From: an uncultured Chlorobiota bacterium
GTDB taxonomy: Bacteria; Bacteroidota; Bacteroidia; Bacteroidales; JAADGE01
Reading direction: 5' to 3'
Assembly (NCBI GenBank): GCA_947311255.1
Contig: CAMZKL010000039.1
Coordinates: forward strand, 1-42,387
DNA: 42,387 nt
Under the pieces are notes generated by a model, which ran no database searches, had not been told where the DNA came from, and saw only the letters and a list, made by a program, of their open reading frames with translations. The translations under genes were made by a program, and so were the position numbers. Below are positions 5,665 through 15,542 of this stretch, piece after piece. Within the stretch, counting starts at the first letter, position 1, and every line of letters starts with the position of its first letter.

Positions 5665-6660
5665 ATGAAAAAAATAAGCATAGCAATTCTAATTTTAATT
5701 AGTTTATTTTCATGTTCAGAAGAGAATGAATCATATTTACCATCATCAACCGGAGGACCCGGACATCTATTAGTAATAATGGCAAATAATAAATGGGAAC
5801 AAAGTCCCGGGAAAGTAGTGAAAGATGCTCTAACTGTCGATTATGAACTTCTTCCACAGTCAGAGCCATTGTTTGATATAACACATCTTCCAAATAAATC
5901 TTATTCAAGTATAATGAAAAGAACTCGCAATATTCTTTTCACACAAATATCAGTAAATATTAAAAAACCAGAAGTTTTAATTGCTTATGACAAATATGCT
6001 CGGCCGCAAATAGTTGTTGTTGTAAGAGCCAAAAATAATAAAGAATTTGTTGAAACCTTTAATAAATTTAAACCAAAAATTGTATCATCACTTATTGAAG
6101 CTGAAAGAAATAGGCTAATAAAAGGCTACAGCGGAAAATTGTTGAGTAAAAATATTAACAAACAACTTAAAGAAAATCACAATATTATTTTAAGTATCCC
6201 TTTGGGTTTTAAGTTTGATGTTGACAGCCCAAATTTTATGTGGATTAGCCGAGAAACACCATATTCCTCTCAAGGAATTCTAATTTGGGATTATCCATAT
6301 ACAGATACAAGTCAGTTTCATGTAGAAAATCTTTTAAATAAGAGAGATGAAATAACTAAAAAATATGTACAAGGGCCTGTTGATAGTACATTTATGGTTG
6401 CAGATAGAATAATTCCGCCTAATTTTAAAGAATTTAAATTTAAAAATAAGTACACAGCTGAGATGAGAGGTTTGTGGAAACTTGGAGGAGCCCAAAAAGG
6501 TGTTTTTCAAGGAGGTCCTTATATAAGTTTTTCGCAGGTTGATAAAAAAAGAAACAGAATAATTACTGTTGATGGTTATATTTATGGAGGCAGAAAGAAA
6601 AAACGAAATCTTTTACGGCAACTTGAAGCAATTTTATACACACTTGATATTAATGAATAA
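5665..6660 (+). CDS. DUF4837-type lipoprotein
   Basis: A 331-residue predicted lipoprotein. The start at 5665 is chosen because it begins a clean lipoprotein signal (MKKISIAILILISLFSC, lipobox Cys17); an in-frame ATG at 5596 would add 23 residues and overlap the tatA terminator. The mature protein matches my recollection of DUF4837, a Bacteroidota-only family of unknown function (features such as GGPGHLLVIM near the start and FQGGPYISF near the end). The gamma-carbonic-anhydrase-like gene follows after 2 bp, so they probably form one transcript. Function unknown. Confidence 0.8.
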   Translation: MKKISIAILILISLFSCSEENESYLPSSTGGPGHLLVIMANNKWEQSPGKVVKDALTVDYELLPQSEPLFDITHLPNKSYSSIMKRTRNILFTQISVNIKKPEVLIAYDKYARPQIVVVVRAKNNKEFVETFNKFKPKIVSSLIEAERNRLIKGYSGKLLSKNINKQLKENHNIILSIPLGFKFDVDSPNFMWISRETPYSSQGILIWDYPYTDTSQFHVENLLNKRDEITKKYVQGPVDSTFMVADRIIPPNFKEFKFKNKYTAEMRGLWKLGGAQKGVFQGGPYISFSQVDKKRNRIITVDGYIYGGRKKKRNLLRQLEAILYTLDINE

Positions 6661-9362: not shown

Positions 9363-11780
9363 TTATTTTTTTTCAGCAATTCTTAGTAAATCCCCAAAAA
9401 CACCTCTTGCTGTAACTTTTGCACCTGCTCCTGCACCAATTATAGTAATTGGATTTTCTCCGTATGATTCTGTAAATATTTCAAAAGCTGAATCTGAGTT
9501 TTTTAGGCTGCCTAAAATTGATTTTTTAGGAACTGAAACTAATTTTACAATTAAATTTCCCTTAGTTTTTTGTAAATTCCCAGACAAATCACCTATATAT
9601 CGTAAAGCATAATTATCTTTAGTTCTTTCTTTAATGGTTTTATAATAAGGGTTTAGCATCCTAATATTTTTTAAAAATGTTTCAGTATCTACTTTTTGTA
9701 AGTTTTCAGGAATTAAATTTTCAATTTGTACATCACTAAATTCGTTTTCTAAATCTAATTCTCTTGCAAGTATTAGTAGCTTTCTTGCAACATCGTTCCC
9801 AGATAAATCTTCTCTCGGGTCTGGTTCTGTTAATCCCAACTCCATTGCTTCTTCTAAAATACCGGAAAAATCTTTGTTTGAATCTGAAAATTCATTAAAT
9901 AGATAGCTTAAAGATCCTGAGAATACTCCTCTAATTCTTGTTATGTTTTCTCCGGATTCATGTAAAATTCTAATTGTATCAATTATTGGTAATCCCGCTC
10001 CCACATTAGTTTCATATAAGTATTGCTTATTATTGTTTTTTATTGCTTTTCTTAATTTTTTATATTTATAATAACTTTGAGTGTTTGCAATTTTGTTTGA
10101 AGATATTAAATCGAATCCATTTTCGAGTAATGAAATATAATTATCGGTAAATTTTAAAGAAGCTGTGTTGTCAATTGCTATTAAGTTTTCTAAATTATTG
10201 TTTTCAGCAAATTTGATTACTTTTTGTATGGAATTTCCTATTTCATTAGAATTTGCATACTTTTTTTCCCAATCTTTGTTTATTCCTTCTTTGTTAAATA
10301 TTATTTTTTTTGATCCTATTATTGCAAAAATATTTAGATTTGTTTCTTTTTTTCTAAGAATATTATTTTTTGAGTTCAAAATTTGGTTTATTAATGAACT
10401 TCCAACAGTACCTTTTCCAAAAATTGCAATATTTATATTTTTAGATATCCCAAAGATTTGAGAATGAATAATGTTTACAACTTTTTCAACTTCTTTATTT
10501 TTAATGACTAAACTTATATTGTTACCATTAATTGTATTGTTTATAAGGAATATAGAAATTTTATTTTGGTTCAAATAATTTAATGAAGATGAAAATTTAA
10601 TTATTTTTTGTCCGATAATCGTTATAACTGAAACATCATCGGACACATCTATTGAGCTAATATCTTTTTTTAAAAGTTCATAATAAAACTCTTTTAAAAT
10701 TATTTCCTTTGCAATTGAAGATTTTTTTTTAGGAATAATAAAACTAACACCTTTTTTGGAAGAACCCTGAGAAATTATTCCAATACTAATGTTGTTAATA
10801 CTTAAACTCGTAAATATCCTAGAATAAATTCCTTTCTTTCCAAATAAACCTTTTCCTATAATATTTATCAAAACAATATTTTTTTGAACGGAAATAGATT
10901 TAATCCCTTTTTTATTTCCATTATTGGTGATTAAAGTTCCTTTGCTTTTGCTGTTAAAAGCATTTAAAATATGTAGTGTAATGTTCTTCTCTAACAATGG
11001 GCTAATAGTTTTTGGATGTAATATAGAAGTTCCAAAACTTGCCAACTCACTAGCTTCATTGTAGTTGATTTGTTCTATTATTTTTGCATTTTTAACTGTT
11101 TCTGGGTCTGCTGTATAGATGCCATCTATATGAGTGTAGCTTTCAATTTTTTCTGCATCTAAATAATTAGCAATTAAAGATGCAGAATAATTGGAACCGT
11201 TTCTCCCAAGAGTTGTTGTTTCATTTTGGTCGTTTGATGATATGAAACCAGTGATTATGGGAATACAGTTTTTATTAAAAGAACTAAAAAAATCAATAGT
11301 ATTCTGTTTAGATTTGTTCTCGTTAATATTTGCATTTCCAAACGAACTATCTGTTTTTAGAAATAATCTACTATCAATGGCCTTACTACATATACCTTTT
11401 TTGTTTAGAATTTCAGAAATTAACTTAACTGCAAAAATCTCACCTTGTGCCAAAACTAAATCTTTAACTTTTAGGCTGTAATCTTTTGTTAGCCTAATTC
11501 CTTGAAAAATATCTTCTAATAAGCGAAATTCCTTTGTAAGATTTATGTTTTTAAAGGGCTCAATTTGGTTTTTTTTAAATTGTTTCCAATCATATGTAAA
11601 TTTATTTCCTTTTTTTGCTTCATCCAAAAAAAACTCTAATTTATCCGTTGTATTTTCTCTTGCAGAGAGTACAATATAAATATTTTTCTTTTTTTTTCTT
11701 TTTTCTTCAACAATAGATATTAAATTATCTATTCCTTTTTCATTTGATAAAGATTTTCCGCCAAATTTTAATATTTTCAT
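9363..11780 (-). CDS. thrA: Bifunctional aspartokinase / homoserine dehydrogenase
   Basis: First (aspartate phosphorylation) and third (aspartate semialdehyde to homoserine) steps of the aspartate pathway in one 805-residue protein, the usual ThrA/MetL length. The N-terminal kinase has KFGGKS at 5-10 and LGRNGSNYSA at 191-200, then a regulatory ACT region at about 300-440. The C-terminal dehydrogenase begins near 450 with the nucleotide-binding IAIFGKGTVGSSL and includes TNVGAGLPIIDTI, GVFSGSLSYLF and EPDPREDLSGNDVARK. It is the last gene of metY-metX-thrA, 10 bp after metX. Placement in a methionine operon behind Met-codon attenuators suggests a role in methionine supply, so metL would be an equally fair name. 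Confidence 0.95.
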   Translation of the reverse strand: MKILKFGGKSLSNEKGIDNLISIVEEKRKKKKNIYIVLSARENTTDKLEFFLDEAKKGNKFTYDWKQFKKNQIEPFKNINLTKEFRLLEDIFQGIRLTKDYSLKVKDLVLAQGEIFAVKLISEILNKKGICSKAIDSRLFLKTDSSFGNANINENKSKQNTIDFFSSFNKNCIPIITGFISSNDQNETTTLGRNGSNYSASLIANYLDAEKIESYTHIDGIYTADPETVKNAKIIEQINYNEASELASFGTSILHPKTISPLLEKNITLHILNAFNSKSKGTLITNNGNKKGIKSISVQKNIVLINIIGKGLFGKKGIYSRIFTSLSINNISIGIISQGSSKKGVSFIIPKKKSSIAKEIILKEFYYELLKKDISSIDVSDDVSVITIIGQKIIKFSSSLNYLNQNKISIFLINNTINGNNISLVIKNKEVEKVVNIIHSQIFGISKNINIAIFGKGTVGSSLINQILNSKNNILRKKETNLNIFAIIGSKKIIFNKEGINKDWEKKYANSNEIGNSIQKVIKFAENNNLENLIAIDNTASLKFTDNYISLLENGFDLISSNKIANTQSYYKYKKLRKAIKNNNKQYLYETNVGAGLPIIDTIRILHESGENITRIRGVFSGSLSYLFNEFSDSNKDFSGILEEAMELGLTEPDPREDLSGNDVARKLLILARELDLENEFSDVQIENLIPENLQKVDTETFLKNIRMLNPYYKTIKERTKDNYALRYIGDLSGNLQKTKGNLIVKLVSVPKKSILGSLKNSDSAFEIFTESYGENPITIIGAGAGAKVTARGVFGDLLRIAEKK

Positions 11781-11790
11781 AATTATTAGT

Positions 11791-12753
11791 TTAAAATATA
11801 GGGTTTAAAATTTTTATAATTTGTTCATGTTCAATTAAAAAAGCATCATGCCCATCAATAGATTTAATTTCATGAAATTCGTTTTTAATATTTAGTTTAT
11901 CTAAAATTGCCTTTGTTTTAACATTCTCTTCTTTTGTAAAAAACAAGTCTGTATTAATTACTATTTGTATTATCTTAGCCTTTAGAGGCTTTAAAATTTC
12001 TTCTTCAGATTTTTTATTGTTAGCAATATTTAAAGTTTTAACTAAATTATTAACCATCAAATATGCTTTTACAGAAAATCTGGATGTTAATTTATTCCCA
12101 TGATAATTGAGCCAAGATTCAACACTAAATAAATTATTTTCTTTTGTTTTTTTGAGATTAAATTTCTTTGTGAAAGAAGCAGGAGTTCTATAAAAAAACA
12201 TTGCTGTTTTTCTTGCATCTTCCAAAGGATGCTTAGAATTTAGCAAAATACTTTCTTGTACTGCACTTTGTCCAATAATCCAATCGCTTGATTTGTAGTT
12301 AGATGCAACAGGTATAAGGTATTTAATGTATTTAGGGTAGAGGCATGCCATTTCCCACGCTATTCCTCCACCAACTGAACCTCCAATTGCAGCATATAGT
12401 TTATTTATTTTTATTTCTTTTAAAACAGTATGAAAAATCTTTGCTATATCTTTACTAATAAAATCTTTATAGTTTTTAATAAAAAGATTATCATATCCAT
12501 TTCCTGGAATATTAAATGCAATTACACTATATTTTTTTGTGTTAATTAATTTATTGTCTCCTACAATTTCTTTCCACCAACCTTTATTCTTACTGTTTAA
12601 ATCTGAGTTTCCTGTTAAAGCATGATTTACTAAAACAACAGGAGCTGAATGCAGTTTTTTTCCAAAAATTTGATAAGATATATTCAAATTTTTTATTTGA
12701 ATACCTTTAAAAGTTTTATACTCTTTTATAGTATGAAATAATAGTTTGTTCAT
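11791..12753 (-). CDS. metX: Homoserine O-acetyltransferase-like alpha/beta hydrolase
   Basis: Acylates homoserine, the committed step to methionine. The 320-residue alpha/beta-hydrolase-fold protein has HALTGNSD at 44-51, the nucleophile elbow GGSVGGG with Ser126, and a C-terminal IDGHDAFLIEH with His302 that completes the triad. It is shorter than classical MetX (about 350-380), as in other Bacteroidota. Its start overlaps the metY stop by 4 bp, and thrA follows after 10 bp. Acetyl versus succinyl donor is not proven by sequence; pairing with MetY favours acetyl. Confidence 0.9.
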   Translation of the reverse strand: MNKLLFHTIKEYKTFKGIQIKNLNISYQIFGKKLHSAPVVLVNHALTGNSDLNSKNKGWWKEIVGDNKLINTKKYSVIAFNIPGNGYDNLFIKNYKDFISKDIAKIFHTVLKEIKINKLYAAIGGSVGGGIAWEMACLYPKYIKYLIPVASNYKSSDWIIGQSAVQESILLNSKHPLEDARKTAMFFYRTPASFTKKFNLKKTKENNLFSVESWLNYHGNKLTSRFSVKAYLMVNNLVKTLNIANNKKSEEEILKPLKAKIIQIVINTDLFFTKEENVKTKAILDKLNIKNEFHEIKSIDGHDAFLIEHEQIIKILNPIF

Positions 12754-14027
12754 TTTGATAAATTTATTGCTTGTTCTAAATCGTTTTTTAAATCTTCAAT
12801 ATCTTCAAGTCCAACTGAAAGTCTTATTAAATCTGTTCCTACACCTGCCGATATTTTATCCTCATCAGTAAGTTGTTGATGTGTTGTACTTGCAGGGTGA
12901 ATAATTAATGATTTTGTATCTCCAATATTTGCTAAAAGAGAAAATACTTTTACTGAATCTGTTAGTTTTTTACCCGCAATGTATCCTCCTTTTAGTCCAA
13001 AAGTAACTATTCCGCTTTGTCCGTTTGGTAAATATTTTTTTGCAAGAATATTATATTTGTTATTTTTTAATCCCGGGTAATTTACCCATTTAACATTTTC
13101 ATTGTTTTCTAACCAGTTAGCTATGTCTAAAGCATTTTTAGAATGTTGTTTTATTCTAACTTCCAAAGTTTCTAAACCTTGAATAATTTGAAAAGCATTG
13201 AATGGGCTTAATGCACCACCGAAATCTCTTAAACCTTCAAGTCTGAGTTTGGCGATGAAAGCATTTTCTCCAAAGGCTTCATAATATTTTAATCCATGAT
13301 ACCCTTTTGATGGTTCAGTAAATTCGGTAAATTTGCCGGATGACCAATCAAAAGTTCCAGAATCAATTACTGCTCCTCCAAGAGAATTGCCTTGTCCGCC
13401 AATAAACTTTGTTAATGAATGAATTACAATGTTTGCTCCAAATTTAAAAGGTTTTAGTAGTGCAGGACTTGCGACTGTATTGTCAACTATTAAAGGGATT
13501 TTATTGTTTTTTGAAATATTTGCAATCTTTTCAATATCAAGAACATCCAGTTTTGGGTTTCCTAAGGATTCAATAAAAATTATTTTAGTGTTTTCTTGAA
13601 TTAAATTTTTAAAATTATCTGGTTTATCTGCATCAGCAAAACTTGTTGTAATCCCAAATCTAGGTAGTGTAACGTTTAGCAAGTTATATGTTCCTCCGTA
13701 TAAACTTTTTGATGCTACAATATGATCACCAGATTTTAAAAGAGTTAGAATTGTAGATGATATTGCTGCTGTTCCAGATGCAAAAACTGCTGCACTTATA
13801 CCTTCTTCAACAGCCGCTAAACGTTTTTCAAGAATGTCGTTTGTAGGATTGTTTAATCTTGTATAAATATATCCGGCTTCTTTTAAACTGAATAAATCTG
13901 CTGCTTGCTCTGTATTATTAAATACATAAGATGATGTTTGGTATATAGGTACAGCCCTTGTACCTTCTGTTAAATATGTATTATGTCCTGCGTGTAATGC
14001 TTTTGTTTTTTGTGTTAAATTTTTCAT
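12750..14027 (-). CDS. metY: O-acetylhomoserine sulfhydrylase (MetY)
   Basis: PLP enzyme that makes homocysteine from O-acetylhomoserine and sulfide. The 425 residues match the MetY family, longer than MetB/MetC. Landmarks are TKALHAGH at the N-terminus, the SSYVFNNTEQAADLF and YTRLNNPTNDILEKRLA block, ASGTAAI, the Schiff-base lysine Lys207 in IHSLTKFIGG, and HPASTTHQQL near the C-terminus. It is the first gene of the metY-metX-thrA operon and is preceded by the attenuator leader described at 14271-14603. Confidence 0.95.
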   Translation of the reverse strand: MKNLTQKTKALHAGHNTYLTEGTRAVPIYQTSSYVFNNTEQAADLFSLKEAGYIYTRLNNPTNDILEKRLAAVEEGISAAVFASGTAAISSTILTLLKSGDHIVASKSLYGGTYNLLNVTLPRFGITTSFADADKPDNFKNLIQENTKIIFIESLGNPKLDVLDIEKIANISKNNKIPLIVDNTVASPALLKPFKFGANIVIHSLTKFIGGQGNSLGGAVIDSGTFDWSSGKFTEFTEPSKGYHGLKYYEAFGENAFIAKLRLEGLRDFGGALSPFNAFQIIQGLETLEVRIKQHSKNALDIANWLENNENVKWVNYPGLKNNKYNILAKKYLPNGQSGIVTFGLKGGYIAGKKLTDSVKVFSLLANIGDTKSLIIHPASTTHQQLTDEDKISAGVGTDLIRLSVGLEDIEDLKNDLEQAINLSK

Positions 14028-14104
14028 TTTTAATTTTTTATTGTTTACAATTTTAAATCTTTAAATTTCATGAACCTTTCTTATGCGTAGCATAATAATA
14101 CCAT

Positions 14105-14203
14105 TTATAGCAAAATGCTAGATATAAATCTTTTCTTTTTTCCTTTCTTTTTGTTAGAAATTATTTCCATAACTATTGCTATGCAAAAAGTTTTTGCCTT
14201 CAT
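14105..14203 (-). CDS. Possible small ORF in the metY mRNA leader (32 residues)
   Basis: ATG at 14203 to TAA at 14105 encodes a 32-residue peptide with a lysine-rich middle (NKKKGKKKRF) between hydrophobic ends. It lies between the second attenuator and metY, 77 nt before the metY start. It is not Met-rich and no terminator follows, so it is not a third copy of the attenuator. Short inverted repeats in and after it (for example TTATGC-TAC-GCATAA just before metY, at about 14080-14094) may fold the mRNA. It may be chance; nothing identifies a function. Confidence 0.25.
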   Translation of the reverse strand: MKAKTFCIAIVMEIISNKKKGKKKRFISSILL

Positions 14204-14270
14204 AAAGAAAAAAATATTCTAATTTATTTATCGTGCGTTTTGCATCGCAAAAGGTATAATTAGTGTAAAT

Positions 14271-14311
14271 AAAAAAAGTCCCTTAGTTTATGTATTACCT
14301 AAGAGACTTTT
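14271..14311 (-). terminator. Attenuator terminator 2 (proximal) of the met operon
   Basis: On the minus strand AAAAGTCTCTTAG (14299-14311) pairs with CTAAGGGACTTTT (14274-14286) in 13 bp including one U-G pair, with a 12-nt loop and a U-tract reaching 14271. The segment GGTAATACA (14291-14299), which is the last base of the 5' arm plus most of the loop, is exactly complementary to TGTATTACC (14341-14349) inside leader peptide 2. Forming that helix, with two further pairs after one mismatch, would open the top of the terminator stem. Confidence 0.8.
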
Positions 14312-14332
14312 AAAAATAGTTTTATATAATTT

Positions 14333-14389
14333 TTAATTTGGGTAATACAATGGCATTATGTACATCATAATATACATTTGCATTCCCAT
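14333..14389 (-). CDS. Met-rich leader peptide 2 of the met operon
   Basis: The 18-codon peptide reads MGMQMYIMMYIMPLYYPN and ends in TAA at 14333; six of 18 codons are ATG. The terminator begins 21 nt after the stop. Codons 14-17 hold the segment TGTATTACC that can pair with the terminator loop. A ribosome stalled at Met8 or earlier would leave this segment free; one that reaches the stop would cover it. No recognised family; the peptide is read as a methionine sensor in ribosome-mediated attenuation. This is inference from composition, position and complementarity. No separate promoter was seen, so it is probably transcribed from 14573-14603 by readthrough of terminator 1. Confidence 0.7.
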   Translation of the reverse strand: MGMQMYIMMYIMPLYYPN

Positions 14390-14439
14390 GTTTTTAGTTG
14401 TTATAGTTTTGTTTTTTTTCATTCTATTTTAATTAAAAT

Positions 14440-14466
14440 AAAAAAAGCCCTTGCAATTGCAAAGGC
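14440..14466 (-). terminator. Attenuator terminator 1 (distal) of the met operon
   Basis: On the minus strand GCCTTTGC (14459-14466), loop AATT and GCAAGGGC (14447-14454) make an 8-bp stem (one U-G pair), followed by seven U, then AUUUU. It lies 25 nt after leader peptide 1. Its 5' arm segment CCTTTGC (14459-14465) is exactly complementary to GCAAAGG (14506-14512) within leader peptide 1, so the alternative pairing would take 7 of 8 bases of the 5' arm and abolish the terminator. Confidence 0.8.
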
Positions 14467-14491
14467 CTTGTGTATTTTAGTTTTTTATTTT

Positions 14492-14563
14492 TTATACATT
14501 AATGTCCTTTGCGTAAATTGTTTTACACATCAAAGACATCATATTTTTGCTTTTTATTATCAT
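14492..14563 (-). CDS. Met-containing leader peptide 1 of the met operon
   Basis: A 23-codon ORF from ATG 14563 to TAA 14492. Met codons are at 1, 8, 9 and 12; the NMMSLMC segment has the same M-M-x-x-M register as IMMYIMP in leader 2. Codons 18-20 (Ala-Lys-Asp) contain GCAAAGG, complementary to the 5' arm of terminator 1. The last Met codon is 15 nt before that segment, so a ribosome stalled at it would leave most of it exposed. The start is only 9 nt from the -7 box, which would make it nearly leaderless; Met8 (14542) is an alternative start. Interpretation as an attenuation leader is inference. Confidence 0.7.
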   Translation of the reverse strand: MIIKSKNMMSLMCKTIYAKDINV

Positions 14564-14572
14564 TTTAGTTCG

Positions 14573-14603
14573 CAATAGTAATATTTATTTTAATGTTTTG
14601 CAA
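14573..14603 (-). promoter_or_regulatory. Promoter of the met operon and its leader
   Basis: On the minus strand TTG (14601-14603), a 20-nt spacer and TACTATTG (14573-14580) fit the Bacteroidota -33/-7 pattern with one mismatch in the -7 box. Transcription would start near 14567, a few bases before leader peptide 1. Confidence 0.6.
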
Positions 14604-14657
14604 TTTTTTTTAATTTTTCTATATTAAATTTACTTTAAGCATTAAAAAATATATGTT

Positions 14658-15542
14658 TTATTTTTTCAGCTTACTTTTTTTAATACGGCGTTTTTTGATT
14701 GCTTTTCTTATAAAAAATCCTATAAGTCCAAAAATAATGAGTACGGGCCAAATGTAGAGCAATCCGAGAAGGAATGTTAAAAAACCTTCCCAACCTCCGC
14801 TAAGAGCTTTTCCTACTTTGTGGAAAAAACCATAAGATACAGTATCATAATCTTGATGAACATAAACTGTTATAGTGCTTAAACCTACTTGGTTTTTTAA
14901 ATACCTTAATCTTCCTTCTTTTGCTTCAATTTCTTCACGTAGTCTTCTTATGTGTTCATTTACTTCAAGAATTTCGGAAATTTTCCTAGCTTTTTTAAGT
15001 AGCTCAATGTATTGAGCTTCAACCTTTTTCTTGTTTTCTATTCGTGTTATTAAATCAATATATTCTTCGGTAACATCACTTGTGTTTATTGATTTAGATT
15101 CAAAACTTTCTGCTTCACCTTCTAAATCTGATAATAGTTTTTCGAAATTTTCAGCAGGAACTCTTATAACAATTGTGTTGCTTATGCTGTAAGAATTGTT
15201 GTTTTCATTTTCAGAAGCTACATAGGCTTTGTTTTTTTTAATAATTTTAATAATATTTGGTTTAGATTTTTTATAATCTGAAACTCCAAAACTAATATTT
15301 GCTGTTTTAATAATTTTTTTAGCAATGTTTTTAGTTTTGTTTATTATATTTTCATCATCATTTAATTCTGTTGTTTCATTTTTTGAGAAATCTTCTTTTT
15401 TATAAATAATTTCTTCTGATTCGGGCATATAATCCATGTCTGAACTAGGTGCATAAGATGCTTCTTTGTTTTGTTCGGAATAGTTTTCACAGCTTAAAAG
15501 GAATATTGCAATAACTGAATAAATTATAATTTTTGTTTTCAT
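14658..15542 (-). CDS. DUF4349 lipoprotein
   Basis: A 294-residue predicted lipoprotein (signal with Cys18 in LLSCEN). A low-complexity acidic stretch leads to the DUF4349 domain at about 75-255: a strand-rich half (TANISFGVSDY, VIRVPAENFEKLL) followed by a long coiled coil at about 165-215 (EYIDLITRIENKKKVEAQY). A C-terminal membrane helix at about 255-280 is followed by a basic tail (KKRRIKKSKLKK). The family has no established enzymatic role. The lipid anchor plus C-terminal helix would span the periplasmic face of one membrane. It ends just upstream of the met promoter. Confidence 0.88.
   Translation of the reverse strand: MKTKIIIYSVIAIFLLSCENYSEQNKEASYAPSSDMDYMPESEEIIYKKEDFSKNETTELNDDENIINKTKNIAKKIIKTANISFGVSDYKKSKPNIIKIIKKNKAYVASENENNNSYSISNTIVIRVPAENFEKLLSDLEGEAESFESKSINTSDVTEEYIDLITRIENKKKVEAQYIELLKKARKISEILEVNEHIRRLREEIEAKEGRLRYLKNQVGLSTITVYVHQDYDTVSYGFFHKVGKALSGGWEGFLTFLLGLLYIWPVLIIFGLIGFFIRKAIKKRRIKKSKLKK

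Follow-up and report, generated by a model that had tools for sequence, protein, structure and literature searches.

The methionine operon and its leader

On the minus strand of the window (the whole stretch of DNA analysed, 42,387 bases), three genes follow one another: metY, encoding O-acetylhomoserine aminocarboxypropyltransferase (12750-14027; TIGR01326, 623.4 bits, cut-off 495.1), a metX-like gene for a homoserine O-acyltransferase (11791-12753), which overlaps metY by 4 nt and whose best NCBIfam model, TIGR01392, scores 184.7 bits, below its cut-off of 500, and thrA, encoding a bifunctional aspartate kinase/homoserine dehydrogenase (9363-11780; NF006959, 729.4 bits, cut-off 726). Ahead of metY, positions 14603-14271 of the same strand comprise, in this order, a candidate promoter, a short open reading frame (ORF1), terminator 1, a second short frame (ORF2) and terminator 2. 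An earlier sequence-only reading had proposed two Met-rich ORF/terminator units before metY-metX-thrA, and direct reading of the sequence confirmed them, coordinates included. The promoter that it had placed before ORF1 stands in part: the TTG (14603-14601) and, after a 20-nt spacer, the -7-like box TACTATTG (14580-14573) of the candidate promoter (14573-14603, minus strand) are present, but the box is a weak match, with one mismatch to TAnnTTTG, which we take to be the Bacteroidota promoter consensus. Of the 23 tandem loci described below, 15 have a perfect TAnnTTTG within 60 nt upstream of ORF1, and the other eight, the window among them, have one with a single mismatch; such one-mismatch matches are weak evidence of a promoter. 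The stretch between terminator 2 and metY (14028-14270), in which we saw no function, measures about 244 nt, and its counterpart in L002 254 nt; the distance is 19-46 nt in L003 and in the 14 tandem loci named below.

ORF1 (14492-14563, minus strand) would encode the leader peptide MIIKSKNMMSLMCKTIYAKDINV, followed by a stop codon; its putative control codons are Met8, Met9, Met12 and Cys13, and the ORF is conserved in relatives. RNA folding of the window predicts a segment 1:2 (protector) hairpin over the Met codons (14501-14540, minus strand), and folding together with pair counts points to GCAAAGG (segment 2, 14512-14506) as the 5' half of an antiterminator. These seven nucleotides match exactly segment 3, CCTTTGC (14465-14459), of terminator 1 (14440-14469, minus strand; U-tract 14446-14440; fold -15.4 kcal/mol), and the antiterminator shares the terminator's 5' arm.

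ORF2 (14333-14422, minus strand) would specify MKKNKTITTKNMGMQMYIMMYIMPLYYPN before its stop codon, with Met12, Met14, Met16, Met19 and Met20 inside the predicted antitermination stretch and Met23 outside it. A segment 1:2 (protector) hairpin is again predicted from folding of the window (14339-14389, minus strand). The 5' half of the putative antiterminator, segment 2, TGTATTACC (14349-14341), could be read from the sequence as an exact nine-nucleotide match to segment 3, GGTAATACA (14299-14291), of terminator 2 (14271-14311, minus strand; end of the U-tract at 14271; fold -15.2 kcal/mol). Both complementarities, of 7 and 9 nt, are therefore exact, as had been claimed; their assignment to the 5' side of the terminator holds for unit 1 but fails for unit 2, where the loop contains all of the nine nucleotides but the first G, which belongs to the 5' arm (1 nt shared with the stem in this genome). 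Among relatives, the unit 2 match is 12-13 bp long and reaches into the stem in L036 (12 bp, 5 nt shared with the terminator stem), L038 and L039, and measures 9 bp in L053. Judged from these models, unit 2 may work by occupying the terminator loop together with the upper stem, and since segment 3 is mostly loop, with 1 nt shared with the stem, antiterminator and terminator stem might coexist as a pseudoknot.

A script was also used to look for units, defined by four or more internal Met/Cys codons in the ORF, by a strong terminator near enough to it and by strong complementarity between the two. Over both strands of the window it returned exactly the two leader units and none besides; 100 dinucleotide-preserving shuffles returned none, and chance Met-rich ORFs were rejected on this ground. 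A search of the whole window with the 4227 Rfam families, among which we presume the T-box to be included, gave no family at gathering score, and a SAM-I riboswitch (RF00162) or T-box in the leader was accordingly rejected. Below threshold, unit 1 matched Leu_leader (22.3 bits, cut-off 50, E 0.039) and Phe_leader (18.5 bits, cut-off 55), scores that do not amount to membership.

Predicted folding at successive ribosome positions

Nascent RNA was folded with an assumed ribosome mask of 13 nt that begins with the A-site codon. In both window units, a ribosome at the first codons gives the 1:2 hairpin over the Met codons. The full antiterminator becomes the best fold when the A site is at ORF1 codons 6-13 or ORF2 codons 9-21, respectively, and with the ribosome near the stop codon neither the 1:2 hairpin nor the antiterminator forms, leaving the terminator free. 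On the complete RNA of the window the terminator is the best fold whatever the position of the ribosome, and the switch would therefore have to rely on kinetic folding. The protector is not a general feature: of the 46 units from 23 tandem loci, 36 have a predicted antiterminator even while the ribosome occupies the first codons, a result that slightly lowered our confidence in attenuation. Across the same 46 units, Met/Cys codons make up 318 of 831 codons inside the predicted antitermination stretch versus 17 of 320 outside it; in the folding models, the control codons are thus placed where a stalled ribosome would free the antiterminator.

Conservation of the leader in relatives

We examined 182 metY loci, comprising the best 80 of 562 confirmed matches, 99 further matches from 149 Flavobacteriaceae genomes (nearly one per genus), the window, L002 and L003. 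They form a related, non-random sample, in which four pairs, all of the SAM-I group, have identical 300-nt upstream ends. By script, two units are present in 23 loci, one in 8 and none in 151, and these counts include misses: L037, counted as having neither, carries both units by eye, and L205, whose upstream region is 28 nt long, has a unit found there by the unit-1 model R1 (as L229). The regions of L092 (177 nt) and L144 (386 nt) are also short, and the unit of L219 is weak (3 Met/Cys). By inspection, both units occur in 14 of the best 80 of the 562 matches (L031-L039, L053, L054, L058, L081 and L099); they come from Flavobacteriaceae, among them Lutibacter (type strains included), and from three MAGs, two of Saprospiraceae and one of Bacteroidales. 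Both units are likewise kept in L002 (G004) and L003 (G035). Upstream of metY in L004-L024, inspected by eye for Met-rich ORFs and T-runs (L012 over 140 nt), no such leader was seen; L025-L030 lay outside the leader scan. A genus-wide trait was rejected, as a close metY occurs in just two of 14 same-genus genomes, the window's own (G000) and G004.

In the last 330 nt before metY at L148, a second ORF and a matching TGGTAATAGC loop stand without a U-tract, which looks like a decayed unit 2. In L002, an insertion of about 200 nt separates terminator 1 from ORF2 (about 910-1127), and the codon matching the ORF2 start of the window is TTG.

The peptides of the 46 units contain 225 Met and 110 Cys in 1151 residues (19.5% and 9.6%), against a background of 0.77% and 0.40% in 2978 residues of seven window proteins. 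They drift between relatives with Met and Cys retained, and those of the Saprospiraceae contain runs like MMCCCMC (L035). The sequence-only reading had taken methionine as the signal sensed; its Met codons are borne out, but Met is not alone, Cys codons being present too, clearly so in the relatives. Given this richness in both amino acids, the signal is probably the charging of both tRNAs. ORF1 and ORF2 are conserved in position and length, and differences in ORF1 length are multiples of three, with the exception of one base in L031. Leaders that keep the hairpins and lose the Met codons or the complementarity, the outcome that would have spoken against attenuation, were looked for among the relatives; in the 46 units of the 23 loci, Met/Cys codons and pairing are both kept.

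The compensatory changes anticipated from the window were found, strongly in unit 2 and weakly in unit 1. Neither the codon counts above nor the shuffle and permutation figures that follow are corrected for ancestry, and all of them overstate independence because the loci are related. In unit 2, 98.6% of antiterminator cells are paired, against at most 60.1% in slid controls; four of the nine pairs changed on both sides, a number reached by 0 of 500 shuffles, and the covariation score exceeds all 500, while further pair types are no more numerous than in the shuffles (259 of 500 as high). In unit 1, 88.3% of cells are paired (slid controls at most 53.2%), and the covariation score and the number of cells with a both-sided change exceed all 500 shuffles. 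A single pair of the seven shows a both-sided change (AU in 9 rows, GC in 7), which is no excess over shuffles (348 of 500 as high), and a slide of +2 gave two such pairs versus one. The outermost unit 1 pair (58/118) is absent in 8 of 16 rows, and L038 keeps four of the seven pairs. On sequence comparison, covariation support is strong for unit 2 and weaker for unit 1. Independently of any alignment, the ORF tails bind their own terminators better than re-dealt ones in both units (0 of 10000 permutations as strong); taken singly, non-cognate arms equal or surpass the own arm in 37% of cases for unit 1 and 19% for unit 2. The columns conserved in alignments A3 and A4, of which A3 leaves out L054 and A4 includes it, are those of the ORF, antiterminator and terminator.

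Possible exchange with SAM-I before metY

In an Rfam search of 14 loci, SAM-I stands before metY in all six without the leader and in none of the eight with it. Over the 182 loci, with SAM-I matches sorted by hand as before or after metY, SAM-I lies upstream of metY in 132, attenuator units (by script) in 31, both in none and neither in 19, including L037; the SAM-I model R3 used here was built from seven loci, six of them metY-upstream SAM-I hits counted again among the 182. Reduced to 178 distinct loci, the sample holds 128 with SAM-I, 23 with two units, 8 with one and 19 with neither. SAM-I thus takes the same place before orthologous metY genes and differs as an aptamer that senses SAM.

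The metY of the window is of the Flavobacteriaceae type, and in a metY protein tree of 86 rows it clusters with the leader-bearing L031 (83% identity) and L032 (82%). The genome of the window itself shares no rank below class with the family taken here as Flavobacteriaceae. The attenuator label needs four changes on this tree (3-4 in bootstrap trees). The operon may have been acquired by transfer together with its leader; some rows of the tree, L003 included, are long-branched.

In eight loci with attenuator units before metY, a SAM-I lies between metY and metX (L036, at 6344-6444, and L037, L038, L039, L053, L057, L081 and L099), so that one operon is apparently read by both sensors. SAM-I also follows metY in L134 and L142.

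Proposed mechanism and alternatives

Taken together, the sequence comparisons and folding models make it very probable that metY-metX-thrA is controlled by two ribosome-mediated transcription attenuators in series, and thus support the attenuation first read from the window. When Met- (or Cys-) charged tRNA is scarce, a ribosome would stall at the Met/Cys codons and leave segment 2 free, which would capture segment 3 before the 3' arm of the terminator is synthesized, and the polymerase would read on. With plentiful Met and Cys, the ribosome would reach the stop codon and cover segment 2, so that the terminator would form; with no ribosome, segments 1 and 2 would pair in the window and the terminator would again result. 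Because the polymerase has both stops in its path, readthrough would be the product of two like-tuned switches, with a tighter and steeper response. From this arrangement we infer translation of the ORFs, ribosome stalling, termination in the cell, the response to Cys and its steepness, and the doubled units would be expected to sharpen repression. Deep Met starvation should also cut initiation, through fMet-tRNA, and counteract reading on. On balance we lean towards a wider proposal, namely that the leader represents a conserved class of tandem Met and Cys attenuators, integrating two tRNA chargings in a pseudo-cooperative manner, which spread with or onto the metY-metX-thrA operons of several Bacteroidota lineages and was repeatedly exchanged with SAM-I.

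It seems improbable that one attenuator alone works, most likely unit 1, with the other passive or decaying and no true sensing in series. Single units do exist: the script sees one in 8 of 182 loci, of which L142 and L170 are single by eye too, the second ORF and loop of L148 lack a U-tract, and in this genome the unit 2 antiterminator pairs mostly with the loop. In two of the eight apparently single loci (L220 and probably L195), however, inspection by eye shows a second unit missed by the script. Of the 23 tandem loci, 17 have 12-21 nt between terminator 1 and ORF2, Met/Cys codons and pairing are kept by both units throughout the 23, and covariation is stronger in the very unit whose function would be in doubt.

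The conservation of both ORFs in position and length would also suit small functional proteins followed by ordinary terminators, but the peptides drift outside their Met/Cys residues and the end that encodes the antiterminator, and the ORF ends track the terminators, as a protein would not need; we regard such proteins as very unlikely. Control of the terminators by a trans-acting factor, be it an RNA-binding protein or an undescribed metabolite or tRNA aptamer, with the Met-rich ORFs incidental, could appeal to the ligand-binding SAM-I at the same place in many relatives. It is nevertheless highly improbable, given that no Rfam family reaches its gathering score and the best sub-threshold match within 14000-14700 has 27.3 bits versus a cut-off of 59, that the conserved columns of both alignments fall in the ORF, antiterminator and terminator, and that Met/Cys codons are concentrated within the antitermination stretch.

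Relation to known systems

The trp, his, thr and leu leaders are the classical ribosome-mediated attenuators. The leader of the window resembles them in its short ORFs with codons for the product of the pathway, in the predicted alternative helices 1:2, 2:3 and 3:4 and in an intrinsic terminator before the operon; unlike them, it carries Met and Cys codons and two full units in series, has a Bacteroidota host and places segment 3 of unit 2 mostly in the terminator loop.

The published cases below are cited from excerpts of open-licence PMC papers. The Salmonella mgtCBR leader contains tandem attenuators that respond to ATP (mgtM) and to proline-charged tRNA (mgtP) (PMC3641672). As in the window, each of its two short ORFs is part of an attenuator; in contrast to its different signals, both ORFs of the window have Met codons and the operon makes methionine. 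Since both window ORFs carry Met codons, and ORF1 one Cys codon as well, the two units look, by their codons, as if they answer the same or overlapping signals. A predicted leader peptide with Met and Cys codons also precedes metNIQ in S. lividans (metL), but it is single, leaderless and in front of a transporter operon, with no typical Rho-independent terminator according to the authors (PMC8079986, as excerpted). In Actinobacteria, Cys leader peptides are described, and the excerpt reports no conserved RNA structures before methionine operons (PMC1262725), while uORFC-8-2 before cysS encodes a leader peptide with Cys codons (PMC8632094). These share with the window Cys codons ahead of genes for sulfur amino acids or tRNA charging; they differ in having Cys only, other genes and phyla and, in the mycobacterial case as excerpted, no conserved terminator (PMC1262725, PMC8632094). 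Two like sensors in series are also found in tandem riboswitches for one ligand ('pseudo-cooperative'), for which a steeper dose response is claimed (PMC9481103); those are metabolite-binding aptamers, whereas here ribosomes would read codons.

Switching of sensing systems before the same genes was noted by Naville and Gautheret (PMC2965389, in excerpt). Leader peptides in Bacteroidota were noticed earlier (PMC9723704, PMC7366714); the F. psychrophilum study gives leader-peptide clues before amino acid operons, its main text, as available, not containing the word methionine (PMC9723704), and the available text on methionine regulation in Proteobacteria has no word beginning 'attenuat' (PMC4239095). 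In the excerpts of open-licence PMC papers, we found no Met-codon attenuator with antiterminator and terminator, no pair of leader-peptide attenuators in series for one signal and no such exchange with SAM-I, which agrees with the initial impression that a tandem Met-codon attenuator had not been described. Within the compass of those excerpts, the type of mechanism (trp/his attenuation) is known, and the specificity for Met/Cys, the like pair in series and the SAM-I exchange were not found described.

If the tandem attenuator reading is true, the list of amino acids sensed through ribosome attenuation gains methionine, with cysteine, in a phylum whose leader peptides have drawn notice before but, in the excerpts, have not been worked out for methionine (PMC9723704, PMC7366714). 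The like pair would provide a natural system for testing whether stacking sharpens a response. The reading also suggests that orthologous operons switch between sensing of SAM and of charged tRNA, and that some, in Lutibacter, combine the two sensors, with one ahead of metY and the other ahead of metX. Methionine poses a difficult case for attenuation, since it also serves to initiate the leader peptide, and deep starvation thus offers a sharp, testable prediction.

SAM aptamers and unit-like leaders at other sites

The sole SAM-I found in the genome of the window lies on another contig (L223, G000:C6:77860-77963), before a gene that is metH-like by eye; in G004 a SAM-I likewise precedes a metH-like gene (L222, by eye), and none was found in G035. 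SAM-II aptamers at gathering score lie near metY in L036, L045, L059, L110, L124, L129 and L131. Further copies of the leader in the window's own genome were rejected, the unit-1 model R1 and the unit-2 model R2 giving one match each in G000. In the 149 Flavobacteriaceae genomes, R1 has matches in 72, weak ones (E above 1e-4) included. The R2 matches L118 and L122 and the R1 matches L241-L243 were judged to be chance.

Two R1 matches, L227 and L235, stand before metX-like genes (by eye), and L230 (G316) occupies a second place about 6 kb from metY, where the next ORF is a PLP-enzyme-like fragment. Unit-1-like leaders at other genes may thus form a small Met regulon. At L117 (about 1450-1596), in a genome from another class of the phylum (G106), a single Met/Cys leader peptide with the end MMMCMMLFISKG and a terminator precede a different sulfhydrylase-like gene.
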